In this document: positions 1,264-49,805 of the stretch, piece after piece
How the letters are laid out: each line of letters opens with the position of its first letter
Numbering within the stretch: the stretch's first letter is position 1
Made by a program: the position numbers and the translations under genes
Assembly (NCBI GenBank): GCA_022414725.1
Contig: CM039467.1
Coordinates: forward strand, 14,433,932-14,497,931
From: Microglena sp. YARC
Lineage: Eukaryota; Chlorophyta; Chlorophyceae; Chlamydomonadales; Chlamydomonadaceae
Direction of reading: 5' to 3'
Length of the DNA: 64,000 nt
Notes under the pieces: generated by a model
Seen by the model: the letters and a program-made list of their open reading frames with translations, nothing else
What the model was told of the DNA's origin: nothing
Database searches by the model: none

Positions 1264-3715
1264 GTGCTGCCACCATCAACAGTATGTATGGAACGAAGGT
1301 GGCTGTACTGGCTGGCGACTACTTGTTTGCCCAGTCTTCATGGTTCTTGGCCAACCTGGACAACCTTGAGGTGAGTCCGAAATTTTGAATTTTGATCTCA
1401 TAATTAGGGTTTGCCTGCAGTAAAATTTGTTTGCAATTCTCTTGAGTGCCAAGCAGACATGTTCGGGAGTTCCTGGCCAACCTGGCCAACCTTGAGGTGT
1501 GTTTTATTTTTTTATTTTTCGTTTTTTATTTGTTTTTCCCGGCAGTGCAATTTGTTTGTATTCCTGTGAGTGGTAAGCAGACATGTCTGGGAGTTCTTGA
1601 CCAACCTTGAGGTGTTTTTGAAATTTTGATTTTTGATCTCATAATTAGGGTATGCCTGCAGTACAATTTGTTTGTAATTCTCTGAGTGCTAAGCAGACAT
1701 GTTTGGGAGTTCCTGGCCAACCTGGACAACCTTGAGGTGTGTTTGAATGTTTGAATTTTGTCTTGTATTAGGGCTTGCCTGAAGTACAATTTGTTTATAT
1801 TCCTGTGAGTGCCAAGCAGATATGTTTTGGAGTTGTTGGCCAACCTGGCCAACCTTGAGGTGTGTATTTTTGTATTATATTGATCTAATAATAAGGGTTT
1901 GTCTGCAAGGTTAGAGAATTACAAACAAATAAGGTTATTTGTTTGTAATTCTCTGAGTGCCAAGTATACATGTTGGGAGTTCCTGGCCAACCTGGACACC
2001 ATTGAGGTGTGTTTGAAAATTCGTAATTTTGTCTCGTTTATAGGGTTTGCCTGCAATGTCATTTGTTTGTATTTCGAATGCCAAGCAGACATGCCTGGGA
2101 GTTGTCGGCAAACCAAGTCATGCATAATAAGACAAGCGTATAGAATAATTGACTCCTGATTCTATTAGTAAACACTGATATGCACGCTACTCCCCCCCCC
2201 CCACCCCCACCCCCACCCCACACCCCACCCCCACCCCCACCCCACCCCCACATGCACCCTCACACACATGCCCTCACACACACACACATGCCTCTCGCAC
2301 TAAAAACACACTCACACACATACACCCCCCCTCACACACCCTCTCACCCTCACCCTCTCACAGACATGCTTATCCATCCTTGAGGTCATCAAGCTCATCT
2401 CCCAAGTCATTGCAGGTCACACCCTCTCACTCTCACCCTCTTGCACAAGCACACAGACCCTCTACCTCACCCTCGCACACACACATGCCCAATCCATCCT
2501 TGCAAGGTCATCAAGCTATGCTCTCCCAAGTCATTGCAGACTTTGCCAATGGAGAGATCAGCCAGGCGAGCAGCTTGTTTGACACCAGCATTACACTTGA
2601 GCAGTACAAAGACAAAAGCTTCTACAAGACTGCCTCCTTGATAGCAGCCAGCTGCCGCTCAGCTGCTGTTTTTCAGCGGAGCCAACGAGGAAGAAAAGTT
2701 GGCAATGTACAATTACGGCAAGCATCTTGGCCTCGCATTCCAAGTAGTTGATGACATTTTGGACTTCACACAGACTGCAGAGCAGCTTGGAAAGCCTCAG
2801 GTAAGTGCCCCACCCCACCCACCACCACTCACAGAGACACACACATCACCTTTCCATCCTCTAACCTTGCATGGCCAAGACTTGGCACTTGGTGAACTCC
2901 ATTTTACCCCCCAAATTTACCTTGACTCCCCACAATTAGCCTACCCAAAAGGTTAGTCCACACCACCACCCTTCCATCCTCTATCCTTGCATGGTCAAGA
3001 CCCAGCACTTGGTAAACTCCATTTGACCCCCAAATTGACCTGAATCCCACAATTAGCCCACCCAAAGCGATAGCCACACCCACCACCCTTCCATCCTCTA
3101 TTTTTGCATGGCCAAGACTTCGCAAATGGTAACCTCCCTTTGACCCCCCAAATTAGCTGATACTCCCCAAATTTGCCCCCAACACCACCCTTCTATCCTC
3201 TATCCTTGTAGGGCCAAGACTTGTCAAGTCACAACCTGACGCCGTCCAACACAGTTCCCCAGCTTCCGTAGAGCTTTTCTATGTCATCAACAACGAAGCC
3301 ATATAATAGGATTCATTGTAGGGCCAATACTTAGCATGTGGTACCCTTGATTTGACCCCTCAAAATAGCTTTTACCCCCCACAACTAGCCCCTAACACCT
3401 CCCTTCCATCCTCTGTCCTTGCAGGGCCAAGATCTAGCAAGTGGTAATCTGACTGCTCCCGTCATCTTCGCCCTCCAGCACGGATCCCCAGCTTCCACAG
3501 AGCTTCTCGATATCATCAACAGCGAGTTCCTAGAGGAGGATTCATTGAAGCGTGCTCTCTCTCTAGTAGATCAATGTGGGGGCCTGGAGACTTCCAGGGC
3601 CCTTGCTAGGGAGGAAGCTGATGTAGCACTGCGCTGCCTCGATGTGCTATCAGAGGGTCCCTCCAAGACGTCTTTGCAACAGATGGTAGATTACGTCCTT
3701 GACCGCATCTACTAG
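1264..3715 (+). CDS. Solanesyl (all-trans polyprenyl) diphosphate synthase, C-terminal half, split gene
   Basis: Head-to-tail prenyltransferase that lengthens an allylic diphosphate with isopentenyl diphosphate to make the long side chain of plastoquinone or ubiquinone. Exons seen: 1264-1370, 2385-2415, 2540-2800, 3425-3715 with TAG. Junction phases agree (2 in, 0, 1, 0) and all introns are GT-AG. Recognisable blocks are [20 protein letters not shown], the [17 protein letters not shown] helix, [18 protein letters not shown], and the second aspartate-rich motif [18 protein letters not shown], which binds Mg-diphosphate. The end is [11 protein letters not shown] followed by the helical C-terminus ending DRIY. 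The first DDxxD motif and N-terminus lie before the window. Exon 2540-2800 needs one T fewer in the T run at 2669-2673 to stay in frame; a sequencing error or a recent lesion are both possible. Plastid targeting cannot be judged without the 5' end. Confidence 0.93.
1371..2165 (+). repeat. Tandem copies of the exon 1264-1370 donor junction
   Basis: Five copies at about 120-150 bp spacing (near 1460, 1582, 1699, 1822 and 1971) repeat the last 25-30 bases of the preceding exon, the GAG-GTGTG donor and about 90 bases of intron. Each carries variants of GGCCAACCTGGACAACCTTG. Decay is mild, so the copies look recent. None is needed for the reading frame. Confidence 0.88.
2170..2384 (+). repeat. C/A-rich low-complexity tract before an acceptor
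   Basis: Poly-C, CCCCAC and CACACA runs with CTCACACA repeats fill the intron up to the acceptor TTGAG at 2384. Proline- and histidine-rich frames here are artefacts of composition. Confidence 0.85.
2416..2539 (+). other. 124-bp intron bounded by duplicated exon sequence
   Basis: The intron starts after CCCAAGTCATTGCAG (exon, ending 2415) and ends with CCCAAGTCATTGCAG (2525-2539). The donor copy gives exon bases 2385-2415 and the acceptor copy supplies the AG. Splicing joins GCA-G to AC-TTT and restores the conserved VIADF. A tandem duplication of about 124 bp turning exon sequence into an intron explains the layout. Confidence 0.75.
2801..3424 (+). repeat. Tandem copies of the last-exon acceptor junction
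   Basis: Units of about 100-120 bp (near 2852, 2970, 3088, 3190, 3300) repeat the pattern CCTTCCATCCTCTNTCCTTGCA-GGGCCAAGA plus 20 or more exon bases found at the true acceptor (3400-3450). The unit near 3205-3300 carries a longer degenerate exon copy reaching the region that encodes [10 protein letters not shown]. Confidence 0.87.
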
Positions 3716-9871: not shown

Positions 9872-9907
<36 letters not shown>

Positions 9908-12900
9908 TCTCCTCCTCTTCCTCCTCATCATTACTACCACCACCACCACCAGCCTCCAACTCATCCTCCATAATGACATCATCATCATCATCATCATCAT
10001 CATCATTCTCCTCCTCTTCTTCCTCCTCATCACTACTACCACCACCACCACCAGCCTCCAACTCATCCTCCATAATGACATCATCATCATCATCATCATC
10101 ATTCTCCTCCTCTTCCTCCTCATCACTACTACCACCACCACCACCAGCCTCCAACTCATCCTCCATAATGATATCATGATCATCATCCCCATCATCATCA
10201 TCATTCTTCTCTTCTTCCTCCTCATCACTACTACCACCACCACCACCCGCCTCCAACTCATCCTCCATAATGATATCATGATCATCATCACCATCATCAT
10301 CATCACTTTCCTCCTCTTCCTCCTCATCACTACTACCACCACCACCACCAGCCTCCAACTCATCCTCCATAATGATATCATGATCATGATGATCATCATC
10401 ATTCTTCTCTTCTTCCTCCTCATCACTACTACCACCACCACCACCCGCCTCCAACTCATCCTCCATAATGACATCATCATCATCATCATCATCATCATTA
10501 TCCTCCTCTTCCTCCTCATCACTACTACCACCACTACCACCCGCCTCCAACCCCTCCTCATTATCATCAAAAAAAAGAAGGGGAGAGCCCTACCCACCTT
10601 TGGAAAGTGTGTTGTGAAGGTGTGGCCCGACTTATGCAGAGGCTCTCCAGCCGCCAAACGATCCCAACACTTCTGACACATCTGGAAGGGCTCCTCACAC
10701 TGATCGCACTTGTACCTGTAATTTACGTCAGAATCTGTTAACTGGCGCAGCTCAGTAAACAACACTTCTGGTACATCAGGAAGGGCTCCTCACACTGATG
10801 TCGCCTAGGGGTTCAGGTTTAAAACCCTAAACCCTAAACCCTAAACACTTCTGGCACATCGGGAAGGGCTCCTCACCCTGATGTCGCCCAGGGATTTTCA
10901 TTTCCGATATATATAGCGATCGCTAGTTTTGGCCCCGTTTTAGCGAAATTATCGCTATAAAAAAGTTTAAAAAAAAGTTTTTTGTGTGCCCTCAGTGGCC
11001 TTAAAAAGCTACAAAAAGTTAAAGAAAGCATTAAAAAGCTGTGCCTGGAGGAGGCCTAAAACCATAATAGCTAGAAGATTCCCACTTTCAGGTTTGAAAA
11101 AAAAATCACTGATGTCGCCCAAACCTAGAATTAAGGTCAGAAGCTGGTAACTGTTGGTCACAATCTGTTAACTAGCGCAGCTCACAAACTTAAGATCATC
11201 ATGTATGCAAATCTGTAGCTCTGTAGTCAATGAATATAGATGGGCGTAATCACAATGAACACACTTGTATCTGGAATATATTTCACAAGCTGTTAGCTTG
11301 CGTAGCTCAGTAAGCAGAGGTGCACATAATCACACTGATCATACTTGTAGCAAGAGTGTAGTTCAGACCCTCTTAGCTTGCGTAGCTCAATACACAGAGG
11401 TGCACATACTCACACTATCACACTTGTAGCAGGAATATACGTATATATTTCACAACCTGTTAGCTTGCGTAGCTCAGTAAAGAGAGGTGCACATTATCAC
11501 ACTGACCACAATTGTAGCAGGAGTGTAGTTCAGACGCTCCAAGCTTGCGTAGCTCAATACACAGAGGTGCGCAAAATCACCTGACCACACTTGCATCTGG
11601 AACATATTTCACAACCTGTTAGCTTGCGTAGCTCAATAAAGAGAGGAGCACATAATCACACTGATCACACTTGTTGCAGGAGTGTAGCTCAGATGCTCCA
11701 AGCTTGCGTAGCTCAATACACAGAGGTGCGCAAAATCACCTGACCACACTTGCATCTGGAATATATTTCACAAGCTCTTAGCTTGCTTAGCTCAGTAAAC
11801 AGAGGTGCACATAATCACACTGATCATACTTGTAGCAAGAGTGTAGTTCAGACCCTCTTAGCTTGCGTAGCTCAATACACAGAGGTGCACATAATCACAC
11901 TATCACACTTGTAGCAGGAATATACGTATATATTTCACAACCTGTTAGCTTGCGTAGCTCAGTAAAGAGAGGTGCACATTATCACACTGACCACAATTGT
12001 AGCAGGAGTGTAGTTCAGACGCTCCAAGCTTGCGTAGCTCAATACACAGAGGTGCGCAAAATCACCTGACCACACTTGCATCTGGAATATATTTCACAAG
12101 CTGTTAGCTTGCGTAGCTCAATAAAGAGAGGAGCACATAATCACACTGAGCTCACTTGTAGCAGGAATATACGTGTATATTTCACAACCTGTTAGCTTGC
12201 GTAGCTCAGTAAAGAGAGGTGCACATTATCACACTGACCACAATTGTAGCAGGAGTGTGGTTCAGACGCTCTTAGCTTGCGTAGCTCAATAAAGAGAGGA
12301 GCACATAATCACACTGAGCTCACTTGCAGCAGGAATATACGTATATATTTCACAACCTGTTAGCTTGCGTAGCTCAGTAAAGAGAGGTGCACATTATCAC
12401 ACTGACCACAATTGTAGCAGGAGTGTAGTTCAGACGCTCTTAGCTTGCGTAGCTCAATAAAGAGAGGAGCACATAATCACACTGAGCTCACTTGCAGCAG
12501 GAATATACGTATATATTTCACAACCTGTTAGCTTGCGTAGCTCAGTAAAGAGAGGTGCACATTATCACACTGACCACAATTGTAGCAGGAGTGTGGTTCA
12601 GACGCTCTTAGCTTGCGTAGCTCAATAAAGAGAGGAGCACATAATCACACTGAGCTCACTTGTAGCAGGAATATACGTATAAATTTCACAACCTGTTAGC
12701 TTGCGTAGCTCAGTAAACAGAGGTGCACATTATCACACAGAATGCAACACCATGACAGGCTGTCACATATCTTTGAACACGGTTGTTCTCGCAATTGTTG
12801 GCGGACCATGGTTTGAATCCCTAGGGGTGCGACTTACTGTTCGCGGTCGCTGTCAACTGCTATGGTCCAGCACTGTCCAGGTAAAGTAGCAGCCGTTCTC

Positions 12901-17130: not shown

Positions 17131-17173
<43 letters not shown>

Positions 17174-17774: not shown

Positions 17775-17815
<41 letters not shown>

Positions 17816-17918
17816 ACTCGCACACACCAGTTTTTTGGAGGGAAAAGAAGAAGTCTATTTTACATAGCAACATGGTGGTGCTCCTAGTAGCTTTTGGGCA
17901 ATACTACCACCTATATTG

Positions 17919-17965
<47 letters not shown>

Positions 17966-18465: not shown

Positions 18466-18505
<40 letters not shown>

Positions 18506-20182: not shown

Positions 20183-20214
<32 letters not shown>

Positions 20215-35853: not shown

Positions 35854-38681
35854 TGGAGAATAGCTACCATGTTGAGTTTATTTGGTTTCACAGACCCTCT
35901 GCGCCTGAGCTTGGACTACTGCGCGACAGCACAATCCGTCTATGTACACCTGATGCACGGCCTTGCCATGTTCCGAGGCATGCTGATTGGGAGAGGGAGG
36001 AGAGGGAGGGGGAGGAGGGGGAGGGAGAGGAGAGCGAGGGGGAAGGAGGGGAAGGAGGGAGGGAGGGGAGGGAGGAGGGGCGTCCACAGGAGGAGGGGTG
36101 AGGGAGGAGGGGTGAGGGAGGGGTACAGGGGAGGGAGGGGGAAGGAGGAAGGGGGGAGGGAGGAGGGGCGTCCACAGGAGGAGGGTGAGGGAGGGGGGGG
36201 TGAGGGAGGAGGGGGAGAAGGAGGGAGGGGAGGAGATGCAGGGGGAGGAGAGGGAGGGGGAGGGGGAAGGAGGGTGGGGAAGGAGGGAGGGGGGGGGAGG
36301 GAGGAGGGGCGTCCACAGGAGGAGGGGGGAGGGAGGAGTACAGGGGAGGGAGGAGGGGGAGAAGAAGGGGCAGCTATCAGAGTGGGAGGCATGCTGATTG
36401 GGAGGGGGGAAGTTAGCCTCCACTTCAGGTACTTGCTTTTGCTTTAGCCCCTCTTGGCATCATGGTCTGGCAACTCCATATAGCCTATTTGGCTACCCCC
36501 TGGACTGTAACAACATAGCACAAGGGTGGATGCTTTCTTCCTTGCTGTGCAGTGCACCACCACACTAGACAACACAACAACACAACAACACACACCCCAG
36601 CACAACACAACTACATAACACAACGGCACAAAACAACTACACAATACAGCGACACAACACAACGAATTCCATCGCCATGCTGATTGGGAGGGGGGAAGTT
36701 AGCCCCCACTTCAGTTTATAGGTATAAGGTTTAGTGGTTTAGGTTTGAACTCAAAGGTTTAGGGTTAAGGTGGGTTTAGGGTTTAGGGTCTTGGTTTAGG
36801 TAAGTTAGGGGTTTAGGGTCTGGGTGGGTTTAGGGTTCAGGTAAGTGGGGGGCCAACTTCAGTGGGGCTAACTTCCCCCTACTTGATGATTGTCCCCCTC
36901 GTGCAAATTTGCTCCACACTGATATCTAGTTGCAGCAATATACCAAGATGAAGAATTCCAGTCCTCATAATGTATTAATGTATGTATGTAGGTATGTTTG
37001 TATGTATGTATGTATGTATGTATGTATGTATGTATGTTACAGTCCAGGGGTAGACCAAATTGCTGAAACATAGAAGGGCCGGGAGTTCGATTCCCCCTAC
37101 GGTCGCCCTGAGCGTTGCAGGTCATTGTCAACCACGATGGTAGCTTGTCTAGTTGAGGTGGTAGACCGTTCTCTGCCCGCGTACAACGGGTTCCCTTAAT
37201 ATCACGCCCCACCAGGCGTTATCATTACATTACAGTCCAGGGGTAGGCCAAATATCACGTGGCATCAATTATCGAGTACAACCACGGCATGGCTGTATCA
37301 AATGCATCAGGTCGCGCCAGGTGGTCCTGCCTTTCCCTGTTATCAAACTGGCTATCACGTGGCATCAATTATCGTGTATGTATGTATGCATGTATGTATG
37401 TATGTATGTATGTATGTATGTATGTATGTATGTATGTATGTATGTATGTATGTATGTTAAATTCCAGGGGTAGGCCAAATAGGCGAAAGTGACTTGCCCA
37501 ACCATGATAGGAAGGGCTTCTACAGAAAAAGCATTCCTAAAACAAAGAAAATACATACACAAATGGTTTGCCTCTTGATGAGGCGGGGGGCAGCCTGCTC
37601 GCTTACGCTAGGGCCAACCACCAATATCCTTCTGAATCCATTTAAGTACTCTTGATGCCCTTGGTATTACTTATTCCTGCCATATCCAACTGTTGATATC
37701 TCGTCTCAAGAAGGCAATCAACCTAGATCCTAGACCAAAGAACCCCCTGCCCGGAAAAAGATGTGCCCGGAAAAAATATGCTTTTATCCCAACCCAACCC
37801 AACCCAACCCAACCCAACCCAACCCAACCAACCCAACCCAACCAACCCATCCCTACCCTACACTACTCTACCCTACCAACCCCAACCCCAACCCCAACCA
37901 GGTCCTTGGCATGTTTCCAGCTATGCTGATTGTCCCCTCATGCAAATATGTTGGACGTTGTTCTCCATCATCTCCCTCCCACACCCCACCTCCATTCCCT
38001 CCCCCACCCCACCCCACCTCCACCTCCACCCCCCCCACCTCTACCCCCACCTCTACCCCACCTCCACCCCACCCCCCACCTCCACCCCACCTCTACCCCC
38101 ACCCCCACCTCCACCCCCACCCCACCTCTACAACCACCTCCACCCCCACCCCCACCTCTACCTCCACCCCACCCCCACCTCTACCTCCACCCCCACCCCC
38201 ACCTCTACCCCCACCTCCACCCCCACCCACAGGGCCTTGGCATGTTCCCAGCTATGCTGATTGTCCCCCTGAGTAAATATGTTGGACCCTGTTCTCCATT
38301 ATATCCCCCCACCCCCCAACACCCTAACCACCCAACCTCACCCCACCCAACAACCCACCCCCACCCACAGGGTCTTGGCATGTTCCCAGCTATACTGATT
38401 GTTCCCCTGAGTAAATATGTTGGACCCTGTTCTCCATTATATCCCCCACCCCCCAACACCCCATCCCACCAACCCAACTCACCCCACCCAACCCCCACCC
38501 CCCACCCACAGGGCCTTGGCATGTTCCCAGCTATGCTGATTGTTCCCCTGATGCAAATATGTTGGACGCTGTTCTCCATCATCTCAGGCATGCTGTTTTG
38601 GCAAGAGTACAAGGTCTTCACGACACTCATGGCAGTCATGTTCACCATAGGTGTCTTGGTGAGTCAAGGCACAAGCTCCCT

Positions 38682-38720
<39 letters not shown>

Positions 38721-41700
38721 TTCTGTTGTCCCTCCCCCTTGTTGTTTCCCCCCGCGTCTTCTTGCTCATGGCGATCATGTTCACCATCGGTGTAGTGGTG
38801 GGTCAATGCAATGCTTTTAATGCACCAAGTTGGTAGAGCGCTGCTCATGGCAGTCATGTTTACCATAGGTGTCTTGGTAAGTCAATGCACAGGCTCCCTG
38901 CCCCCCCCCCCCCCCCCCTGTTTTGTTGTCCCTCCCCCTCGTTGTTTCCCACTTGTCTTCTTGCTCATGGTGATCATGTCCACCATTGGTTTCTTGGTGA
39001 TTCAATGCACAGGCTTCTTGTTTAGTTGTCCCTCTGTCTTCTTGCTCATGGCGATCATGTTCACCATCGGTGTATTGGTGATTTAACACGATGCCTTGTG
39101 TGCAACAAGTAGGTAATGCGCTGATCATGGCTGTCATGTCCACCATCAATGTATTGGTGATTCAACACAATGCTTTGAATGCAACAAGAAGGTAGTGCAC
39201 TGCTCATGGTGATCATGCCCCCATCCCCCCCCACCCCACCCCAAACCCACCCTCCCACACACAACTCCCCCCCGCCCCTAATCCCCAACACCACCCCCAC
39301 CACTCCAGATTGTTATCGTGGGTGTGTATCTCCTCACCCTGAATGCCAAGATCCAATACGAAAAGAGAAAGAAGCACCGAGGTTGTTGCAAGAGAAGTAG
39401 TTGTTGGAGGCACAGGCTCTACGCCCCCCCCCCCCCCCCCCCACACACACACACCCCCCCCACCCCACACACACACATCAACACACACACCATCCCACTC
39501 CAGATTGTTTTCGTGGGTGTGTATCTCCTCACCCTGAATGCCAAGATCCAATACGAGAAAGAGGACGAAGCACTAAGGCAGTTGCAAGAGACGGAGTTAT
39601 TGGAGGCGCAGGCTCTGGACCCAGGCGACCCTGACAACTGTTCCGTGGTGGGGAGCGAGCACAACCCCAACCAGTCCATGCGACACAGCATCGTCGGCTC
39701 CCCGGATGGTTTTGGTCCATACCCCAGGTGGGCCAGGCAACACGCACTCACCCCACACCACCTACCCTCCCCACACACACGCACCCACCCCACACCACCT
39801 ACCCACCCACCCCACACACGCCCACCCACACCACCTACCCACACCACACCACCTACCCACACCACCCACCCGCACCCACCCCACACCACCTACCACACCA
39901 CACACACGCACCCACACCACACACACGCACCCACACCACACCACACCACCTACCCACCCCGGGTGGTTTTGGTCCATACCCCAGGTGGGCCAGTCAACTC
40001 ATGTACTGCCTGTATTCTGGTGGTTATATGAAAATGAAATTGAGGTTGAAATTGTTACATCTGAGTAATGTGCCACTCTCGGGACGTGAAGTTAAGGACA
40101 TCACTGCGAAAGCCGGAACTAGCAGTGGTCATAATGAAATATGATGTAATATATAATAATATATTATTATATATTACATACTTTCCCCCCCCCAGTAGGA
40201 ATAAGGTTATGGGTTTTCCAAGGTTTGGGGGAGGGGGGGGGGGGAATCGCTGCCTTCTCAATCAACTCTGTGCTTAGGGCATTTGTTTCTAGATATCAGA
40301 AGGAGATGGGAGTTGAACTGGGGCGTTCCTCTGTTAAAGACCAGTCCATTGGAGCTATTAGGGAAGCCCCCCCCCCCGAACCCCAACCCAACCCCCTCTC
40401 AACCCCCCCCCAACGCAACCTAACTCAATAAAAGATTAGCAGGGGGGTAGGCTGTTCAACCACCTTAAGGATGTGTAGGCGTGTATTCTACATATTGGAT
40501 GAGAATGTGATTGAGATAGCCACTCCCATTCCCATTCCCATTCCCACCCCACCCCATTCCATCCCCATTCCCACTACCTTTCCGGCTCCAACTCCCACCA
40601 CTACCAACCTTGCACACCCGAAACCCACTGTAACTTTCCCCCGTGCAAGCGACAGGAAAGGTTGCTTCAAACTCACGCCCTGTGGCAAGGAGTATGAATT
40701 GTAATTGTTTACCCACCCCACCCAGGCCAACGTCCAAGATGAACAGCTCTCTGCTCAGTGAGCATAGCAACCCCATCTACAGATCATGGTTTGTCTCCCA
40801 CTATCACTCCCTCTCCCACTCCCACTACCACCCCCACAACCTTCACCACTGCCACTCCCATTCCCATTCCCATTCCCATTTCCACTCAATTCCCCGCTCC
40901 AGCTCCCACCACTTCCAACATAACACACTATACCCAGGTCGCGGGCCAACATGAACATCTCTCTACTCAGTGAGCATAGCAACCCCGTCTACGAATCAAG
41001 GTTTTGTCTCCCACTCCCACGCCCACTCCCACTCCCACTCCCACAACATTCACCACTACCACTACCACTACCACAACCTCCACCACTGCCACTTCCGCTT
41101 CCACTCCCATTCCCACGCCCATTTCTATTCCCATTCCCATTCCCATTCCCATTCCCATTCCCACTCACTCTACCGCTCCAACTCTTACCACTACGGACAT
41201 AACACACCCTACCCAGGTCACCGTCCAACCTGAACAGTACTCTGCTGAAGGAGCATAGCAACCCCATCTACGACCCCAACCCGCAAAACGACGACCCCAA
41301 TAAGCCAAGAAAGGGCGACGTATTCGACACGCTCATCTTCACCAGTTTGGCAAGCACTATTGGCGGAACGAGGGTAAGTTGCTTTGTTAATTAATGAAAG
41401 GAAGTTTACCCCAAGAGGTGGGTCTCCTGACGCAAACCAGCGACCCCAAGGATTCAGTTTGACTGATGATAAGAGCTCAAAAGAGTAGGCGCACTTAGTT
41501 GAGTTGAATGGAATGAAGTGAAACTGTTGATGTGAGTTTAATCTGCAATTTTGGTCATTCAATCCCATGGATAAAAAGCATATATGAAATATATGACGTG
41601 ATATTAATGATATCTTAAAAGTGGAACTGTTGCGCTCTCAAACCAGGGTACTTCCAAGCGCGCGCTTTTTGAGCCCCACTGCGCGCTTTGCGCAGTTTTT

Positions 41701-44700
41701 TTGCAACCCCCTGTGGGCGCAGAAAGCAATTTTTGCGCTGTTTGCACTACAAAGCGCAGATCTTTTTCTTTCAAGCGCGCTAAAGCGCTGGCCAATTTGG
41801 TCAATGGAAGGACCGTGACTCAAACATGCCATTAAAGTTCACCTCGGCAGATAATCTTCTTGTCAACTTGAGCTCATCAGGGTGCCAGATGAGACTGACT
41901 ACTGCGCGCTAGTGCGCAAGGTTTTGGAGCTTGACTGCGCGGTTCAGTCATTTGTAAACCCCCTCCGGGCGCAGCCCACAGATTTTCTTTTTAGGTGAGT
42001 CAAAAAGGCAACCCAGAAGGATGCGGTTGCGCTTTTGAAGCAACCCTAAATGACCCAATGTAGTACACTGGTGCAAATAGGTCATTGGTCGCAGAATAAG
42101 ATAACTAGGGATGTCAAGCATGATATCGGATAGATATATCGTATATGTATATCGAATAGATATATCGAATAGATATATATATGATCTGTTGACAAAATCA
42201 TATGTTATATCTTACAATGGCGTTCGATATATCTATACATCATACAATATGCATAGGCTTCGAAGATTAGGGCAAATCGTGGACCAAATTAGCCCTAATA
42301 GGGCTAAAAGGCTAAATCAGCCCTATAAGTGTACAACTAATTTAGCCAAACTAAGCCAAAACACCCCAGAAAAAGTTGACATGTGTTCAGAAAAGTGTTG
42401 TTCTGCGACCTATTGACGTGTGTGGCAATTGGATTTGATCTGCCCATCATGAATTCATGATGAAATAGCTCTTATGATATGAAGAACAGATATCCCCATA
42501 TAATGGCATGTCTGGGTTCAAAGCCCCTTGACTGCTTTGGTATGTCTGATCTAAGTCTATTTCCTGGCTCACGTAGGCTTTTGAAGGTTGTTGTAGGTTA
42601 GTTCATGCCATTTCAGGTCAGTTCATGCTATTTCAGGTTAGTTCATGCTATTTCAGGTCAGTTCAGGCTATAACTAGTGCTAATTACGGAATCGCTTATT
42701 GCGCTAAGCTCCCACCCCCACCCCATTAGAGCCCTAGATGTATCGTACAATATTGTATGATATATAGCCCGATAATCTTGCTGACCAGTACCATATTGAC
42801 AACCCTAATAATGTATCATTTAACCCTTCCCTTTGCCCACTACTGAAGCCCACCTGAAAGCATCGATGCAAAGAACTGTGCAGTATATCTGTGTATAGCA
42901 CTCAGCCCTACCCATTGCCCACTACTGAGGCCCACTTGAATGCGTCCTTGCCAAGACCTGCGCAATGAATCCATGCATAACACCCAACCCTACCCGTTGC
43001 CCACTATTGAGGCCAAACCAAATGCATCGATGCAAAGAACTGTGCAGCATATCCGTGCATTACACCCAACCCTACCTTTTGCCCACTACTCAGGCCCACC
43101 TAAAAGCATCGATGCTAAGAACTATGCAGCATATCCGTGCATAACACCCAACCCAACCCTACCCTTTGCCCACTACTCAGGCCCACCTAAAAGCATCGAT
43201 GTCAAGAACTATGCAGCATATCCGTGCATAACACCCAACCCAACCCTACCCTTTGCCCACTACTCAGGCCCACCTAAAAGCATCGATGTTAAGAACTATG
43301 CAGCATATCCGTGCATAACACCCAACCCTACCAGTTGCCCACTACTAAGTCCCACCTGAAAGCATCGACGCAAAGAACTGCAAAGCGAATCCGTGCAAAA
43401 CACCCAACCCCACCCTTTGCCCACTACTCAGGCCCATCTCAACGCGTCCTTGCAAAGAAATGCGCAACGAATCCGTGCATCAGAGGGAGGAGAGAACGCC
43501 GTGGAGTCCACACTTACGCCCAACGCACTGAACGGAACCAACAGCAGTCGTCCAGTCCTGAATTCATCGATTCGTAGCGGAACAAACCCGAATGAGACTC
43601 CCAGCCCCCTGAACGCTTCCAATGTCAGCAATGGGGATAAGTCTTCGTTGTAAGTTTTCTGTTTCCTGTTGCTTGGTTCCCACAGCCACATATACAAAAC
43701 ATCTTCACATTTGCATTTACATTTACATTTGCACGCCCATGCACACTCATGCACACGCACGCACAGGCACGCACACACAAACAAACACATGCACACACAT
43801 ATCCTCATGACTCCTATACATATCACATGCACATTCACATCACATGACTCCTATACACATCACATGCACATCACATGACTCCTATACACATCACACGCAT
43901 CTTCATATGACTCATATACACATACACATGCACATGTACATCACATGACTCAAATACACATACACATCACACGCATCATCATATGTAGTACAATTACGCA
44001 TCTTCATATGAAATACAGTTACGCATCTTCATATGAAATACAATACAATGCATGTGCGTATCCAAATGGCACATTTGCACACAGGTGACATGCATATCCA
44101 CATGGCACATACACACACACGCATGCACACACATATCCACGTACACATCACACGCATCTACCTATGACATGCGCACAGACATGTGTGTATACATATCTGA
44201 ATGGCTCATTCGCACACATTATCATGGTATGCATACATGCACACACTTACAAAGCACACACACAGACACGCTCACAAAGCACACATACACTCATGCGAAA
44301 GACATACGCACAGCCGTTGACACCCACGGCACACAACACGCACAAGGCCACACTCCATTACAAAAGACTCTCAGAATCCATGCATCCATGCAAGTGACAC
44401 ACGTGACACTAGTTATCATTGTGCACCACTTACCAACGCACGTCACTATAAGATTGTATTATTATTGTTGCATGGTTACAGCCAGCTATGGACTGCTCGC
44501 CTTCTTCCAATTCCAAGTCCCCCCGTGCGAGACCAAACCTAACCTAACCTAACCTAACCGCAGAATGGAGACTTTCAAGCGCAGCTTCCGTTCAATGCAG
44601 AAGCGAATCACGAATGACTTCAGCGTTGTAGACACCGATACTGTGAAGGGCTCTGTTGGGCTCAACAATGCGCATATGGGCTTCTACCCAGGACCTGATT

Positions 44701-44737: not shown

Positions 44738-44773
<36 letters not shown>

Positions 44774-44823
44774 TAGTAAACGGTATTACACAACCGTGTT
44801 GGGGTCCAGCGTCTCTCTCTCTA

Positions 44824-44888
<65 letters not shown>

Positions 44889-47800
44889 GCCCCTCTTCCC
44901 CTTTGAGTGTGTCTGTCAGTGACTCTCTCCTCAACTTCGTACATCATACTATGTTTTGTCTTATCTTCCTACTATACTCTGCATCTACGCAGGGGGCAGT
45001 GCTTGGGGGTAGTGGTGGCAGTGTAGGAGGTGGGGGCGGGGAAGGGCTTGGATGCAGTGGGGGTGGGAGGGGGGAGCGGTGCGGTGGGCAAGGAGCGATG
45101 AAGACCTGCGGGAGATCACGGACACCTATAGACACTAAACTCTGCATCTACGCATTTTTTCTTTCTTTTCTAGTAAAAGGAATTTTACCCGAGGAGGTGG
45201 GTCTCCTGACACAAACCAGCAAATATGTCTGTCAGAGCATATCCCTTCATAGTGGATGCCGTCAGTTTTTCATCATCATCATCATCATCGTCGTTGTCTT
45301 CGTCGTCCTCCTCCTCCTCATCATCATCATCATTCCCACTATCCTACTCCTACTCCTACTCTTACTCCTACTCCCCCTCCTCCTCCTACTCCACCTCATC
45401 ATTGTACTCCTCATCCTCGTCATCATTATCATTTGTGTTTCTATAAATATTTGCATATCGAATCTACTTATACGCCATCCAGCCTATATTGAGGAGCCTA
45501 CATCCCTGGCTTTCTTCTCCACACCCTTCATTCCACCATCTTTTCTTGACACTGCAGAATCGAAGCATCACGGCTGCTGCTGGACGCCTCCCTGCTAGCC
45601 CAGATTCTCAGGGGGGCCATGATCATATTGCATCGTCACTACCTCAATCTCGCTTCTACGATAATGTGAGTTCTATGATAGTTTTATGACGGTTGTCCGT
45701 TTGTCGTGTTGTTAGTCTGTCGTGTGGTCGGCCACCCTGGCCCTGGCCCTGGCGTAACCCTGGCCATGTCGTATAATCTGGCTTTGGTCCGCTGCACTCT
45801 ATTCCGGTGCCACCTGTCGCTCCAATAGCCAACACTCTCCGCCAATTATCCACGTCGCTTGCCACGCGTTTAGGACTTTGTTTACAGGGGTGAGGGGGGG
45901 GGGGGGGGGGCAGTAAAGGGCACATCTGGTGAAGGGCAAATCTGGTGAAACCTAGCCCTCTGGGACTGAGGACAAAGGAACACAAAAATCCCTAACCAAC
46001 TTTTGGTTCCAAAGGTAGAATTTGATTTAGATAGCTCGTGTTAAAGCCTTTGACCTCCTCTATCAATGTATGCAGTACAATTTGACTTCCATGGAGCCAA
46101 TTTTGAGAACATGATGATGTACTGTAGTAGGAGATGTGTTACAGGTTTGAAGTGTCTAGTGTGATGGTGCAGTACTGGGATGGTGCAGTATCATGTGATG
46201 TTATTACAGACAAGGACAGTATTATAGACTAGGACTTGTTGTCTATAATAATGAACGAAGTACAGCACCTGGAGCGGAGCAGTAGACCCCCCCCCCTATT
46301 TTTATATTGTTTACAACAGGTGAACCAAGAGAGGGTGCTTGCTGATATCATCTGAATAGATGTAGATGTTTCATCCAATGTGTTTCATCTTCTAAACTGG
46401 GCAGAGATGTGAAGAGATCATCATTAGGATGTTATGTGTCATTAGGAACAGATATCGTCATTAGGATGTTACGTGTCATTAGGAACAGATATCGTCATGA
46501 GGATGTTCCTTGTCATTAGGAACAGATATCGTCATTAGGATGTTACGTGTCATTAGGAACAGATATCGTCATTAGGATGTTACGTGTCATTAGGAACAGA
46601 TATCGTCATTAGGATGTTACGAGTCATTATGAACAGATATCGTCATTAGGATGTTACGTGTCATTAGGAACAGATATCGTCATTAGGATGTTAAGTGTCA
46701 TTAGGAACAGATATCGTCATTAGGATGTTCCGTGTCATTAGGAACAGATATCGTCATTAGGATGTTACGTGTCATTAGGAACAGATATCGTCATTAGGAT
46801 GTTACGTGTCATCAGGAACAGATATCGTCATAAGGATGTTACGTGTCATTAGGAACAGATATCGTCATTAGAATGTTACGTGTCATTAGGAACAGATATC
46901 GTCATTAGGATGTTACGTGTCACTATGAACAGATATCGTCATTAGGATGTTACGTGTCATAAGGAACAGATATCGTCATTAGGATGTTACGTGTCATTAG
47001 GAACAGATATCGTCATTAGGATGTTACGTGTCATTAGGAACAGATATCGTCATTAGGATGTTACGTGTCATTAGGAACAGATATCGTCATTAGGATGTTA
47101 CGTGTCATAAGGAACAGATATCGTCATTAGGATGTTACGTGTCATTAGGAACAGATATCGTCATTAGGATGTTACGTGTCATTAGGAACAGATATCGTCA
47201 TTAGGATGTTACGTGTCATAAGGAACAGATATCGTCATTAGGATGTTACGTGTCATTAGGAACAGATAGCGTCATTAGGATGTACGGTGCATGTTATTCA
47301 TCCTATGGAGCGATCAAATATGGTATATCCTGCCGTAATGGCGGGGCGTTGTCGGGAAAAAAGTGATCAACCCCTGTGATCAACCCTTTCTGCTGTCATC
47401 AGCTCCCTAGTACCCCTAATGTTGTCCCTAGTACCCCTAATGCTGTCATCAACTTTTAAGACCCCTTCTGCTGTCCCCTACAGAAGCCAACTCTTGGAAA
47501 GCTGTCGACAATCAAGGAGGTGTCTTCGTCTGTGGTAAGTCGCTACCCACTGTTTTATTATTAATGTACGTCCTGGGTGTGTATTATGGGTATACGCGTG
47601 TATTATGGGGAGTACACTGGGTGTCAATTGACATTTTGGGCGTGTTGAGTCACAAACATCGCGTAACCGCAAACATGGTGGAACCACCTCCCAAAGTGGG
47701 CATATGGCTGGCAAATTAGAACATAGGCACTACCTCATCTATTTCATCTATGGTAAAGTCTCCACACACTGTTTTATTATTAATATCATGTACACTACCT

Positions 47801-49805
47801 TATCTGTTACACCTTATCTAATACACCTTATCTGTTACTTCGACAATGACGCAGCTTGACTGCAACGAGGCTGTGTTTTTGTTTAGGTGTTCACCTGGTT
47901 TCAGTTTAATTAGTCCTGAAATTGAAGGATAAAATTGCAATCTTCAACTACCCCACTTTTATAACCACCCTTGGAGTACTTGCTACAGATTCTGACCAAG
48001 GTGTTGGCTCCGGCTGATCAGATTGACGAAGCTGAGAAAGAGATGGAGGCTGGTAAATCAAAGGAGGGCGCTGCAAGCAGTCAGACAGACCATCACCCAA
48101 CCACCCGATTCACCCCCTACCAAGCAATCAACCACCCCTTGCTCACAACCACCCTTTGAGTACTTTCTACTCGCTCATAACCACCCTTTGAATGCTTGCT
48201 ACTTTCTCATAACCACCCTTTGGATGCTTGCTACTATCTTATAACCACCCCATGCTCATAACCACCCTTTGAGTACTTTCTACTCGCTCATAACCACCCT
48301 TTGAATGCTTGCTAATTTCTCATAACCACCCTTTGGATGCTTGCTACTATCTCATAACCACCCTTTGAGTACTTTCTACTCGCTCATAACCACCCTTTGA
48401 ATGCTTGCTACTTTCTCATAACCACCCTTTGGATGCTTGCTACTTTCTCATAACCACCCTTTGAATGCTTGCTACTCGCTCATAACCACCCTTTGAATGC
48501 TTGCAACAGAATATGAGAAGTGTGCTGGCTCCAGTTGATCGCATTGACGAAGGTGAAGAAGAGAGGGATTCACGACAACCATCAAAGGAGGGCTCTTCAA
48601 GCAGTCAGATTGGTGACAAGCAACTCCCCTCTAATGGGGTCTCTGCCTCCAACTCCGCTGATCGACTTTTGGATACACAACCCGCCACCGCCGACACCGA
48701 TCTTGCCAGCTCCCTGAACTCAACCAAACGGCGGAGAATGAAAGCCCTTGATGCAGAGTCGGAGGACGAACGGCCGACTGTGCTGTCAACCGCCTCAACT
48801 GAACCCGCAGGTGTTGCTTCCATAGGACGTGGTCCGGATCGAAGTAAGACATCTCGACAGAACTCAGGAGATGATCTAGAGAGACCTATCTCACGTATTT
48901 CCCCAAAGCTGTCCTCACGCAATTCCCCATGGCAGCCCTCAACTTATCAATCTAAGGCAGCTTCACTATCCACCACCAACGGTAGCTATGGTGGGGGAAC
49001 AGGACCTGATGGCTCCCTGAGTAACAGCACTACACACAGCAGTAGCCACACCAGCAATACAGGGGGCGGAATGGGTGGTGGAGGTAGAGGTCCAGATGTA
49101 TACGCGCCTATTTTGGTGGACATTAAACGTAGCCCCATGTACAATTCCCAGGATCTGTTTCGACCCACATCCCGACAATTGTCCGGTGGAATGGACTGGG
49201 CTGGTGGGGAGGCAAACCCCAACAATAGAGCAAGCCCAGGATGGCCTGTGTACGCCCAAGGGGGTGGGCTGCCGACGGAGGGTGGCATTGGCAGTTTCCT
49301 CAACGCAGTCCCCTCTCTGGCACAGGCGCACTCCTCATCCTTAGCCGTGCGGCGGGAGCACGCGCAGCTGAGGGCAGGAGATTATAGCGGTGCAGGCTAT
49401 ATGAGTAACAGCATAGAAGGAATGGCGCTACCAGTGGGTGCCTCCTCAACATACGTACCCAGGCCCTATTCAGGCAGCCCCACTGGGGGCCAGAACCCAG
49501 GTGGCTACACCTCTCCTCGAATGTATTCTCAAATGTTGGACCATCCCCTTACTGGTGGAGGGGTGGGTGGAGGAGGAGGGGTGTTTGGCAGTGGCGGTGT
49601 GCGGGGCAGCGTTGCAAGCAGCGGCAGTGGAAGTGGAATGAGCTACGCAAATGTGCGGGGCAGTGTTGGAAGCTCTGGTGAAAGGAGTGGGCTACCCCAC
49701 CAGCAGCGTCCCGTGCCCTTGCAACCTGTGGGGGGGTACTTCACACAGCCCCAACCTGTGCGTTATCAGTCACCCCAGGGCCGGTCCGGGGGGGAGGGGG
49801 ACTAA
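26674..49805 (+). CDS. NIPA-family (DUF803) magnesium transporter with very long C-terminal tail
   Basis: Multi-pass membrane transporter of the NIPA family, proposed to carry Mg2+. Exons: 26674-26712, 26823-26852, 26943-27013, 27655-27725, 28934-29022, 30401-30522, 31367-31453, 32165-32348, 34140-34217, 38512-38658, 39504-39727, 41217-41373, 43432-43649, 44564-44723, 45558-45665, 47484-47534, 48510-49805. All introns are GT-AG, phases agree, and the sum is 3132 nt. Core residues 1-330 show family features: MAITWIYGAIINIAGSILI, LGTNIMKLGHNK, WKIGIGIYVVGNLLNFGSFA, SVQFVANVVFASLVLKEP, then paired hydrophobic segments to IVFVGVYLLTLNAKIQYEKE. NIPA proteins are usually 300-450 residues; here about 700 more follow, rich in Ser, Gly, Asn and Pro, with no domain I recognise. 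Introns make up 86 percent of the gene and are mostly junction-derived arrays. The start fits the family N-terminus directly. Confidence 0.92.
27095..27545 (+). repeat. 125-bp tandem repeat in transporter intron 3
   Basis: Three to four units with TTTTACAAGGGTGGGTTG, GGTGTGGTTCTGATTGTGC, GATTGATGG, and GTGGATGGATGGGAAGC. The minus frame gives a 146-residue artefact. Confidence 0.8.
27800..28560 (+). repeat. 33-bp minisatellite GCTGAAAGCTGACATGACAGG in intron 4
   Basis: About 16 units of 30-34 bp (GCAGCTGAAAGCTGACATGA, CAGGCATATGAAT) from 27830 to 28260. A related segment lies at 28420-28470. The left edge has CAGCTTCTAGGCAGCTC, a fragment also seen near 13377 and 20485. Confidence 0.85.
28680..28930 (+). 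repeat. C-rich duplicated segment before exon 5
   Basis: Two units with poly-C, CAGTCTCACACNTACTTCACA and ATACCTCAC precede the acceptor at 28933. Confidence 0.6.
29205..29345 (-). mobile_element. tRNA-derived SINE, copy 3, reverse
   Basis: On the minus strand TTCAATGGTTGATC and B box GGTTCGAACCC precede the shared SINE body (TGTCCACAGCCGCTGTCAAC, GCCATGGTAGCTTTGTCCAG, GTAAAGTAGCAGCACC). Confidence 0.72.
29380..29465 (+). repeat. (CT)n microsatellite
   Basis: CTCTCTCT run of about 75 bp with a few interruptions. Confidence 0.9.
29530..30400 (+). repeat. Copies of the exon 6 acceptor junction
   Basis: Clear copies near 29858, 30024 and 30245 carry GCAGGTCACATTAACCGTCC, TCTTGGCGACTGTGTGCC and CCACAACAACCTGAAACAAT. 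The true acceptor is at 30398-30400. Units also carry TCCCATGTCTCATGTATTCC flank. A more decayed copy begins near 29540. Confidence 0.87.
29640..29840 (+). repeat. AGATACGAGATCAGATGTG minisatellite
   Basis: About six units combine GAGATACGAGATCAGATGTG and AGATATGAG; they lie between two junction-like segments (TACAACAACTACAANGACCTG). Confidence 0.8.
30523..30730 (+). repeat. Copies of the exon 6 donor junction
   Basis: Three 60-65-bp units (30530, 30597, 30662) repeat ATGAATCAACNACATATGACGTCG, CAGATTGAGCTGTATANAGAG and the GTAAGTTTACAA flank seen at the true donor at 30523. Confidence 0.88.
30935..31175 (+). mobile_element. Family J dispersed repeat, copy 2
   Basis: Matches 10900-11100 through CTATATATAGCGATCACTAG, CCCCGTTTGGTGAAATTATC, AAAGCTATGAAAAGCTATAAA, TGGAGGCGGCCGAAAA and CCACTTTCAG. 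Confidence 0.65.
31500..32164 (+). repeat. GT/GGT microsatellites and a copy of exon 8 start
   Basis: 31500-31770 is GTGTGT and TGGTGG repeats. 31890-32010 is ACCTCAACC-like. 32021-32095 is a degenerate copy of the exon 8 acceptor junction (AATATATCAAAGAAGGCATT, CCCAAGTTTTTACC) ahead of the true one at 32165. Confidence 0.82.
32360..32480 (-). mobile_element. Family C retroposon, reverse copy in intron 8
   Basis: TTTAGTT then hairpin GTGAAA-GGAA-TTTCAC, CCAGGAGGTGGGTCTTCCGA, CACAAGCCAGCGACACCAAG, GATTCAGTTTGAATGGCG, AAAGAGTAGGCGC. Confidence 0.78.
32750..34139 (+). repeat. About 14 copies of a 95-bp unit near the exon 9 acceptor
   Basis: Units combine CATCTCACGTCTTCACTCATCCCCTGCAGATG, CTTGTGCCTCATGCC, CTTTCCCCATGCTTCATGCC. 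The true junction (CATTCACCCCCTGCAG-ATG, 34124-34142) has the same acceptor context, and the exon is similarly rich in CATGCTCCT and TTCATGTC. A 560-residue open frame through it is an artefact. Confidence 0.85.
34320..34435 (+). repeat. (AT)n and (GGTCGT)n microsatellites
   Basis: TATATATA at 34328-34352 and GGTCGTGGTCGT at 34367-34430. Confidence 0.85.
34977..35336 (-). CDS. Possible nested minus-strand ORF, unknown
   Basis: A 119-residue frame within transporter intron 9. It shows charged helices (MRRLMEIANERLRSF) and a CESCGVGG ... CTRC ... pattern that could bind zinc. No family recognised. It is one of the few non-repetitive frames in the intron, but codon evidence is weak, and GT/AG signals near 35220 and 35110 could alter it. 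Confidence 0.25.
   Translation of the reverse strand: MDVSSDDAEMRRLMEIANERLRSFRISLKDRNCARAKVLTCSFVFAHRYLVGRASCFLKGPSLGQLCHALATAQRENNLIVAGCESCGVGGKILKRYCTRCKEHAARRKSEERHRVAGT
35515..35640 (+). repeat. GT and poly-G tracts
   Basis: GTGTGTGTG followed by poly-G at 35600-35638 with two A interruptions. Confidence 0.85.
35815..35855 (+). repeat. (AT)n microsatellite
   Basis: About 19 TA units. Confidence 0.9.
35985..36425 (+). repeat. 430-bp polypurine tract
   Basis: Almost pure G and A (GGGAGGGAGGAGGGG) broken only by a recurring GCGTCCACAGGAGG at 36068, 36167 and 36308. The ends share GGCATGCTGATTGGGAG (35978 and 36388), recurring at 36676. Confidence 0.85.
36470..36515 (+). mobile_element. 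Family E 3' end fragment
   Basis: AGCCTATTTGGCTACCCCCTGG-ACTGTAACAACATAGCA. Confidence 0.6.
36715..36850 (+). repeat. Degenerate TTTAGGG-type tract
   Basis: GGTTTAGGGTTTAGGGTCTTGG and GGTTTAGGTAAGT variants; flanked by copies of GGGGGAAGTTAGCC(C/T)CCACTTCAG (36402, 36691). Confidence 0.65.
36960..37260. mobile_element. Nested family E tail (reverse) and SINE copy 4
   Basis: (TATG)n at 36973-37036 then TTACAGTCCAGGGGTAGACC is a reversed family E 3' end. A SINE body follows with AGTTCGATTCC (37084) and CACGCCCCACCAGGCGTTAT (37204), and another TTACAGTCCAGGGGTAGGCC at 37229. The order suggests insertion of one element next to another. Confidence 0.68.
37370..37540 (-). mobile_element. Family E copy, reverse, with expanded (TATG)n tail
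   Basis: (TATG)n of about 21 units at 37373-37457, then TTAAATTCCAGGGGTAGGCC and GACTTGCCCAACCATGATAGGAAGGGCTT, the reversed family E 3' half. Confidence 0.7.
37780..38511 (+). repeat. CCCAA/CCCCAC tracts with three copies of the exon 10 acceptor junction
   Basis: Copies at about 37898, 38229 and 38369 repeat CCTTGGCATGTTCCCAGCTA, TGCTGATTGTTCCCCTGA, AAATATGTTGGACNCTGTTC up to 80 bases of exon, each preceded by a CAG. Only the copy at 38512 continues into the full exon. Copies two and three share GAGTAAATATG in place of GATGCAAATATG. Confidence 0.9.
38659..39300 (+). repeat. Copies of the exon 10 donor junction, C tracts
   Basis: Six units of 80-110 bp (near 38757, 38846, 38962, 39045, 39122, 39200) carry CTCATGGCNATCATGTTCACCATCGGTGT and a TTGGTGA(G/T)TCAA flank. 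Poly-C runs at 38684 and 38902. Confidence 0.87.
39309..39503 (+). pseudogene. Degraded tandem copy of exon 11 start
   Basis: ATTGTTATCGTGGGTGTGTA to about 39420 repeats the first 110 bp of the real exon (39504). A GA-rich deletion shifts the frame. C-rich filler separates it from the real acceptor. Confidence 0.87.
39728..40000 (+). repeat. CCACAC-rich array and exon 11 donor copy
   Basis: ACCCACACCACCTACC-type repeats, then at 39960-39995 GGTGGTTTTGGTCCATACCC-CAGGTGGGCCAG repeats the real donor junction (39705-39735). Confidence 0.83.
40020..40140 (+). mobile_element. Dispersed repeat also at 6180-6300 and 50410-50490
   Basis: GAAATTGAGGTTGAAATTGT-TACATCTGAGTAATG and GGGACGTGAAGTTAAGGACA match the 6180-6300 copy. 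Confidence 0.55.
40490..41216 (+). repeat. CCCATT/CCACTC tracts with two copies of exon 12 acceptor junction
   Basis: Junction copies at 40725-40790 and 40936-41015 share CAACNTGAACAGCTCTCTGC, GAGCATAGCAACCCC, TCTACGA and an ACCCAG acceptor with the real exon at 41217. Spacer is CATTCC and CACTCC repeats. Confidence 0.88.
41385..41490 (-). mobile_element. Family C retroposon, reverse copy in intron 12
   Basis: TGAAAGGAAGTTTACCCCAAGAGGTGGGTCTCCTGACGC ... CCAGCGACCCCAAGGATTCAG ... AAAAGAGTAGGCGCAC. Confidence 0.72.
41620..42070. repeat. GCGCGC-rich dispersed repeat (two copies)
   Basis: Segments with CTGCGCGCTTTGCGCAGT, AACCCCCTGTGGGCGCAG and a second with ACTGCGCGCTAGTGCGCAAG, AACCCCCTCCGGGCGCAG. 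A reversed copy lies at 50045-50165. Confidence 0.65.
42110..42260 (+). repeat. AT-rich GATATATCGAATA tandem repeats
   Basis: Short direct repeats of ATAGATATATCGAAT. No gene. Confidence 0.6.
42590..42675 (+). repeat. 20-bp repeat TTTCAGGTCAGTTCATGCTA
   Basis: Four tandem units. Confidence 0.85.
42835..43431 (+). repeat. Seven copies of the exon 13 acceptor junction (about 85 bp)
   Basis: Units carry CCCACTACTCAGGCCCACCT, AAAGCATCGATGCAAAGAAC, TATGCAGCATATCCGTGCAT and AACACCCAACCCTACCC. The real acceptor and exon (43429-43480) have CTACTCAG-GCCCATCTCAACGC, TGCAAAGAAATGCGCAACG, AATCCGTGCAT. About 55 bases of exon are in every copy. Confidence 0.92.
43690..44350 (+). repeat. CA-rich ACACATCACATGACTCCTATA repeats
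   Basis: ACACATCACATGACTCCTAT units at 43790-43920 and ACGCATCTTCATATGA units at 43985-44045, then CACACA-rich DNA. Confidence 0.75.
44530..44563 (+). promoter_or_regulatory. (CCTAA)n run directly before exon 14 acceptor
   Basis: Four or five CCTAA repeats end in CTAACCGCAG. CTAAC is a good branch-point match, so the array may supply several branch sites for the acceptor at 44563. Confidence 0.5.
44740..44890 (+). repeat. (CT)n and (TATC)n microsatellites
   Basis: CT run 44741-44771; (TATC) run of about 17 units 44822-44887. Confidence 0.9.
45160..45235 (-). mobile_element. Family C retroposon fragment, reverse
   Basis: Oligo-T, hairpin GTAAAA-GGAA-TTTTAC, then GAGGAGGTGGGTCTCCTGAC and ACAAACCAGC. 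Confidence 0.72.
45268..45432 (+). repeat. CAT/CTC triplet-rich tract
   Basis: CATCATCATC, CTCCTCCTC and CTACTCCTA repeats. Confidence 0.85.
46418..47285 (+). repeat. 37-bp minisatellite in transporter intron 15
   Basis: About 23 units of CGTCATTAGGATGTTACGTG-TCATTAGGAACAGATAT with few substitutions. Each unit carries two ATTAGGA half-units. Confidence 0.93.
47985..48509 (+). repeat. Copy of final exon start plus acceptor-derived 30-60-bp array
   Basis: 47989-48100 resembles the final exon start (GTGTTGGCTCCGGCTGATC, GATTGACGAAG, AAAGGAGGGC, CAAGCAGTCAGA). 48130-48509 is CATAACCACCCTTTGAATGC-TTGCTACT, the acceptor flank repeated about 12 times up to the real acceptor. Confidence 0.88.

Follow-up and report, generated by a model that had tools for sequence, protein, structure and literature searches.

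Local tandem duplication of exon edges in introns of the green alga Microglena sp. YARC

Introduction

Minisatellites consist of tandem units whose imperfect copies span a wide range of ages, and introner elements are dispersed families that add splice-site-bearing DNA to genes. Here we examine a 64,000-nucleotide stretch (the window; positions 14433932-14497931 of contig C6) of the 568 Mb genome of the green alga Microglena sp. YARC, in which introns hold local tandem arrays of the exon edge that adjoins them, splice site included. The closest counterpart comes from birds: Hron et al. (2026; PMC12954441) reported 'sequence stuttering' on the dot chromosomes of chicken. In one form of it, 'exon stuttering', copies of the lateral part of an exon, donor or acceptor included, run through the intron next to it. 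According to that paper, 190 of 5,572 dot-chromosome introns show exon stuttering, the copied exon parts measure 20-187 bp (median 36) and occur in 1-44 copies (median 4), over 90% of matches begin no more than 1 base from the exon border, and the authors tie stuttering to GC-rich DNA. Wide variation of intron length within the species is a further mark of stuttering. A preliminary description of the window knew of no described process with this exact signature. The signature is in fact already in print as exon stuttering, and Hron et al. are the only authors to describe it in the literature searched.

Results and discussion

Exon edges recur in the adjacent introns

Copies of exon edges were found at 21 of 60 junction sides in a main sample of 30 introns that were not selected for visible arrays (12 of 38 sides in the window, of which 9 of 32 in gene 3 and 3 of 6 in gene 1, and 9 of 22 at further loci). 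In this edge alignment, an exon edge of up to 40 bp was compared with its own intron and counted as positive when its score exceeded by at least 3 those obtained with the reversed intron and with every other intron. Functional exon edges form part of the repeat units in 17 of the 30 sampled introns, i.e. in over half. A screen in the published style, which applied the BLAST settings and bit-score threshold of Hron et al. to gene models of our own but omitted the manual review that they made, returned 39 matches in 13 of the 30 introns (8 of the 19 window introns), with none in shuffled sequence. The matches had a median length of 46 bp, and 30 of the 39 started within 5 bp of the exon border, 14 of them within 1 bp. 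Positive junctions held 1-11 copies in this screen; the 20 copies that formed the upper end of the range given previously were not seen. Similarly, the exon part of the unit, formerly put at 20-80 bases, measured 21-107 bp (median 57) over 21 arrays, a tally entered as pairs by hand that omits arrays clipped by the 120-bp exon flank or of unclear period.

Controls in which the introns were reversed, shuffled or replaced by other introns led us to reject pure chance as a source of the arrays. A masked diagonal self-comparison of the gene 3 region, which skips low-complexity bases, gave 1841 local direct-repeat segments with a score of at least 16 versus none in the reversed control, and even the loosest threshold, 14, gave only 2 segments in that control. 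An initial BLAST-based repeat count was discarded because simple repeats made its reversed control high (153 versus 51 at score 20).

The genes sampled were modelled as follows. Proteins of the window have their nearest named relatives among green algae, mostly chlorophycean. Gene 1 is a polyprenyl (solanesyl-type) diphosphate synthase, represented by the species' own protein P0001 (288 aa; EukProt gene25207), and gene 3 is a NIPA-like magnesium transporter, represented by P0121 (1059 aa; EukProt gene25205), with 17 coding exons and 16 introns at 26674-49891 on the plus strand. Both were placed with a purpose-written splice-aware protein-to-DNA aligner, and all aligned residues were identical (227 of 227 for P0001 and 1052 of 1052 for P0121), with one frameshift in each. 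Gene 2, on the minus strand, has no protein model, and the three arrays claimed in it were tested directly with exon edges picked by eye.

The main sample comprised all 16 introns of gene 3, 3 of the 8 of gene 1, 2 of the 6 of its paralogue on contig C2, and, at further loci, 1 of 9 (L038), 1 of 4 (L040), 2 of 6 (L041), 3 of 3 (L037) and 2 of 2 (L039). Introns beside weak 5' exons of gene 1 and its paralogue were excluded, as was the 3,030-bp intron before the exon at 1264. Loci L038-L041 were chosen since the family table gave no copies there, so these four are biased against arrays, and L037 was chosen for its long reading frame; the model of L041, perhaps a broken gene, has 5 frameshifts. 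Two dynein loci, L035 and L036, were chosen because copies were visible, and their figures are kept separate from those of the 30 introns. With the first two modelled introns of L036 (167-265 and 331-770) excluded and an artefactual 1-bp exon merged, 6 introns remained at that locus. A NIPA gene on contig C1 (L015-L017) was left out because P0122 gave no reliable model.

Arrays at individual junctions

Gene 1 and gene 3 features described in this section lie on the plus strand. The gene 1 exon at 1264-1370, with its donor at 1371, is placed by the spliced alignment of P0001; by edge alignment its last ~28 bp are repeated in intron 1, within a donor-spanning array at 1343-2114 with a period of ~116-123. 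An acceptor-spanning array in intron 3 (2838-3544, period ~117) extends into the last coding exon (3425-3712 by spliced alignment, with the stop codon at 3713-3715).

In gene 3, donor-spanning arrays occupy intron 6 (30470-30733, period 64) and intron 10 (38626-39209, period 79), and a donor-spanning duplication lies in intron 11 (39707-39998). Acceptor-spanning arrays occur in introns 5 (29530-30433), 9 (37906-38582, period 138), 11 (40579-41273) and 12 (42822-43480, period ~82), joined by an acceptor-spanning duplication with a lag of 195 in intron 10 (39308-39610). At the acceptor side of intron 7 (32024-32217) the repeated part starts ~40 bp into the exon, the edge itself being of low complexity. 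A further intronic array, with a period of ~96, ends 3 bp into an exon and was scored as non-crossing (32769-34142). An array fully within intron 15, away from any junction and with a period of ~37 (46413-47289), serves as a comparison.

Most of the arrays named in the preliminary description were recovered. Confirmation was obtained for the donor arrays it had placed at 1371-2165, 30523-30730 and 38659-39300 and for the acceptor arrays at 2801-3424, 37898-38511 and 42835-43431. In gene 2, minus-strand acceptor-side arrays at 15646-16830 (8 copies, 90-93% identity) and 19239-20345 (7 copies, period ~150, 78-92% identity), and 6 diverged copies (73-96% identity) of the start of a ZZ-like exon at 10740-12740, likewise stood, each with no copies in its reversed control; the ZZ-like exon itself has a weak ZZ-domain match below the Pfam cut-off. 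The array assigned to 48130-48509 exists, at the acceptor of intron 16 of gene 3 (47944-48568), and consists mostly of intron sequence; the exon part claimed for it is only weakly repeated, with a best exon-edge match of score 19 at 47998-48028. The arrays that reach exons in introns 5 and 7, the acceptor-spanning duplication in intron 10 and both features in intron 11 had not been listed before. The mixed age of the arrays was also borne out, as copies are about 73-100% identical.

Copies are local, oriented and found in many genes

The claim of a genome-wide process was upheld by arrays in many genes, including dynein and kinesin clusters, and genes with arrays lie on contigs of up to 195 Mb. 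Searching with the dynein AAA_6 domain yielded 69 rows, which fall into 14 gene clusters; the kinesin motor yielded 132 rows in 58 clusters (122 of 325 candidates scored). Among these were 37 partial-exon copies near a stronger exon, distributed over 17 clusters (7 of 14 dynein and 10 of 58 kinesin). Thirty-three of them are anchored at an exon edge and all 33 lie on the expected side: the 22 that share the exon end (within 6 residues) are all downstream, and the 11 that share the exon start are all upstream. Two of the remaining copies are of a whole exon and two have neither edge. In one dynein, the final ~45 codons of an exon recur in 7 copies downstream of its donor. At the two chosen dyneins, exon-edge copies were present at 9 of the 12 junction sides of L035 and at 4 of the 12 of L036; of the 12 introns that the two loci have together, 8 were positive in the published-style screen. 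Donor arrays stand at the same junction in both loci, and may have one or two origins.

That the copies are local rather than transposed, as had been proposed, agrees with the absence of exon matches in non-adjacent introns of the same gene in the published-style screen, where shuffled sequence likewise gave none. It also agrees with a genome search using window positions 1264-3500, the single block searched genome-wide, in which 40 of 646 candidates were scored; these yielded matches to exon regions, with their copies, on C2 and C1, matches to a C/CA-rich repeat, and no match elsewhere to the units of the gene 1 donor array. Paralogous introns hold different arrays: intron 1 has a donor array in gene 1 and an acceptor array in the C2 paralogue, while the next shared intron has an acceptor array in gene 1 and a donor array, plus a weak acceptor-side match, in the paralogue.

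One further dynein observation concerns P0133, a protein filed under Acipenser sinensis and flagged UNVERIFIED_CONTAM, which scores 400 bits against a 113-residue dynein region, ~1.7 times the next match. The score pattern is as if the dynein domain were present more than once, and the source may be a contaminating organism.

Probable intron birth

Judging from sequence comparison with paralogues, one new intron, and probably two, were made by local tandem duplication. Intron 4 of the dynein L035, which is predicted solely from alignment to relatives' proteins, is absent in the paralogue L036, where one uninterrupted 340-bp exon crosses the site. The intron contains a fused exon-exon copy matching at 40 of 44 bases, 14 to the left and 30 to the right of the splice point, which points to duplication of an uninterrupted exon; other origins are hard to see. 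In addition, the tail of the intron briefly equals the end of the upstream exon (score 11). The intron content of L035 and L036 differs at three positions in all, at residues 1566, 1667 and 1684 of the P0145 reference.

The second candidate is the 124-bp intron of gene 1 at 2416-2539 (plus strand), which lies between a small exon (2385-2415) and the exon at 2540-2800 and is supported, in the spliced alignment, by the predicted protein P0001 alone. Its tail copies the 31-bp exon that precedes it (score 24), and a single uninterrupted 291-bp exon runs across its site in the C2 paralogue, suggesting that the intron was probably gained by tandem duplication. The small exon itself probably arose by duplication of the acceptor and the first ~31 bp of an exon. 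In both genes, then, the source is an adjacent duplicate and the intron is missing from the homologue. Such an abutting copy at the tail or head of the intron was found in none of the other 40 of 42 introns. Weaker, mostly one-sided fused matches in L036 intron 6 and L041 intron 2 are not claimed as intron births. The frameshift of gene 1 relative to its EukProt protein falls within the exon at 2540-2800, near a run of T, and is perhaps an assembly error.

Intron content and decoy splice sites

Tandem arrays make up 38% of the intron bases in the main sample and low-complexity sequence a further 22%; the median intron is 914 bp long, and its unique remainder has a median of 360 bp. As the preliminary description had it, the introns are filled with decoy splice sites, often intact. 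Among 42 introns, 111 intronic exon-edge copies were found at 35 of 84 junction sides, and 85 of the 111 retain GT or AG. Their exon parts match at 86-94%, with point changes and indels. Eight donor copies at L041 read TG, seven of them after a G, giving a GT shifted by one base, and none of these is among the 85. Sites were also scored with a simple matrix derived from the 42 real introns, the highest score over three one-base shifts being kept; the 10th percentile of real sites was exceeded by 48 of 64 decoy donors and by 28 of 46 decoy acceptors. Retention of the splice dinucleotide was 0.81 versus 0.89 for neighbouring exon bases at donors and 0.87 versus 0.89 at acceptors, so that selection for or against decoy dinucleotides was not clearly seen in the 111 copies of these introns. 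The orientation of the copies means that the working site is the first in a donor array and the last in an acceptor array, and we infer that exon definition selects it.

Origin of the arrays

Duplications with a selection filter on exons form what we regard as the probable explanation. Short local tandem duplications, with units of tens to a few hundred bp, would arise frequently over much of the genome. Any that fell wholly within an exon would usually break the protein and be removed, while one over a splice junction would be tolerated, with the copy beside the rest of the exon still working and the remainder becoming intron. Arrays could then grow by further duplication or unequal exchange, giving longer introns with more decoy splice sites, and occasionally a duplicate would provide both a donor and an acceptor and hence a new intron. 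Unit sizes and mixed ages suggest such ongoing small duplication together with array growth; replication slippage, fork restart or end-joining, possibly at G/C-run DNA, are candidate mechanisms. The copies themselves would be neutral.

The preliminary description had proposed instead that duplication seeds at splice junctions, and had suggested comparing junction-spanning copies with others. In the main sample, a matched test on this question gave no enrichment: 14 of 60 junctions are spanned by arrays versus 18.0 expected if junctions were random points of their own introns, and even in the chosen dyneins the figures are 10 of 24 versus 8.7. Local repeats are also widespread away from junctions, spanning 35% of all window positions, 17-57% of three stretches outside the two modelled genes and on average 18-19% (range 0-51%) of 14 random 10-kb stretches. 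Many arrays lie within introns or between modelled genes. One, with a period of ~180, lies over the stop codon of gene 1 and the sequence downstream (3562-4086, plus strand), a non-splice boundary at which the same selection filter would explain an array. No array was found wholly within the exon flanks (up to 120 bp) around 33 introns.

Several results pull the other way. When each array is counted as one seed and adjusted for unit size and array-free intron length, 22 of 49 arrays in the main sample cross a junction versus 11.6 expected (P=0.0002), an excess that persists when low-complexity sequence is removed from the free length (22 versus 15.9, P=0.026) or when array detection is confined to the intron (15 versus 8.4, P=0.008). 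The uncorrected excess is inflated, because the conserved exon copy keeps junction arrays recognisable for longer and because masked low-complexity sequence is counted as free length; with both corrections most of it is lost (15 versus 11.8, P=0.15), though the chosen dyneins keep theirs (10 versus 6.6, P=0.04). The exon share of the unit is mildly non-uniform (mean 0.40, Kolmogorov-Smirnov P=0.036, 21 arrays). Moreover, an array over the stop codon is present at one of the three gene ends inspected and absent from the other two, and an array with periods of 96 and 102, both multiples of 3 (9872-10559, minus strand), sits in overlapping open frames on both strands and may or may not be coding, so it does not establish in-frame expansion of an exon. 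Directed duplication, in which R-loops, polypyrimidine or G/C-run DNA, or pausing favour starts at splice sites, might draw support from these excesses and from G4/C-run motifs, which are about six-fold denser in sampled introns (29 per 10 kb) than in the 14 random stretches (5 per 10 kb) and take up 9.8% of bases in 25 introns with exon-edge copies versus 4.1% in 17 without. Since the arrays themselves contain such runs, this link is confounded and is just a lead. Set against the matched test and the arrays in intron interiors, between genes and over a stop codon, we consider directed duplication unlikely as the source of the pattern: seeding at junctions is not needed to produce it, and a modest junction preference is possible.

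The remaining explanations have far less to recommend them. If the decoy arrays were kept for a function, such as splicing regulation or alternative exon starts, the many usable sites would make sense, yet their dinucleotides are kept about as often as exon bases or slightly less, as in fairly recent neutral copies, and array positions are not common to the one paralogue pair compared; we think a function very unlikely. Stuttered or misassembled reads at exons deserve still less credence: the frameshift in each modelled gene shows that the assembly is not error-free, but the copies differ by point changes and indels in a way that read stutter would not produce, the arrays of paralogous introns differ, and EukProt proteins from the species itself continue through the exons. 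An introner-like or other transposable element, which would account for introns in many genes gaining splice-site-carrying sequence, can practically be dismissed, as the units differ from intron to intron and copy the adjacent exon edge, distal matches within genes are lacking, and the gene 1 donor-array units found no counterpart elsewhere among the scored candidates.

Other features of the window

Four further stretches of the window stand out. An array with a period of 34 occupies positions 1-1263 up to the acceptor of the exon at 1264; its unit resembles the intron end and includes no exon sequence. Near-pure cytosine runs of up to 58 bases occur at 17131-18502, several within a ~130-bp tandem repeat, and a long array with nested 26-bp and 88-bp units lies between modelled genes at 23468-25480. 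At 59919-60167, a weak match to an integrase core (rve), below the Pfam cut-off, is probably a fragment of a long terminal repeat retroelement.

Implications and comparison with known systems

Exon stuttering now extends to another lineage, one far removed from birds, where it affects many genes and GC content is ordinary, which argues against GC-rich microchromosomes as a necessary cause. Intron growth and intron gain are tied to one visible process, and in a fast-dividing, genetically simple alga both the duplication mechanism and the avoidance of decoys by the spliceosome become directly testable. More tentatively, small local tandem duplication could be the main engine of intron birth and growth here, running without high GC at a rate far above that reported for bird dot chromosomes, a proposal we hold to be rather doubtful at present. 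Were it true, it would imply a lineage-specific state of replication or repair, and also that the spliceosome, through exon definition, can cope with several intact decoys in one intron.

The algal arrays resemble exon stuttering: the tandem blocks are local, imperfect and tens to hundreds of bp long, and they copy an exon edge together with its splice site. They differ in belonging to a green alga, in being spread over many genes on large contigs instead of one chromosome class, and in being far more frequent, at 13 of 30 introns in a small, uncurated sample versus 190 of 5,572 curated ones. The association with GC-rich dot chromosomes is not found in the alga, where GC content is ordinary (0.487, or 48.7%, in the 14 random stretches, 0.493 in introns and 0.545 in exons). 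Fewer algal matches start within 1 base of the exon border (14 of 39 versus more than 90%), and the alga adds a stop-codon array and intron birth. The intron at 2416-2539 recalls the potato RdRp case (PMC4974935), in which the 3' end of an intron and the 5' part of the next exon were duplicated, and the fused copy in L035 intron 4 is as expected for intron gain by tandem duplication of an uninterrupted exon; unlike the potato case, intron gain in the alga appears as a side effect of a broader process by which introns already present are lengthened too. With minisatellite expansion the arrays share imperfect copies of widely varying age, but their units include functional exon edges. With introners they share the addition of splice-site-bearing DNA to genes, but their units derive from the adjacent exon edge, and the related copies at many unrelated loci that mark an introner family were not encountered; the nearest likeness of the algal arrays therefore lies with exon stuttering.

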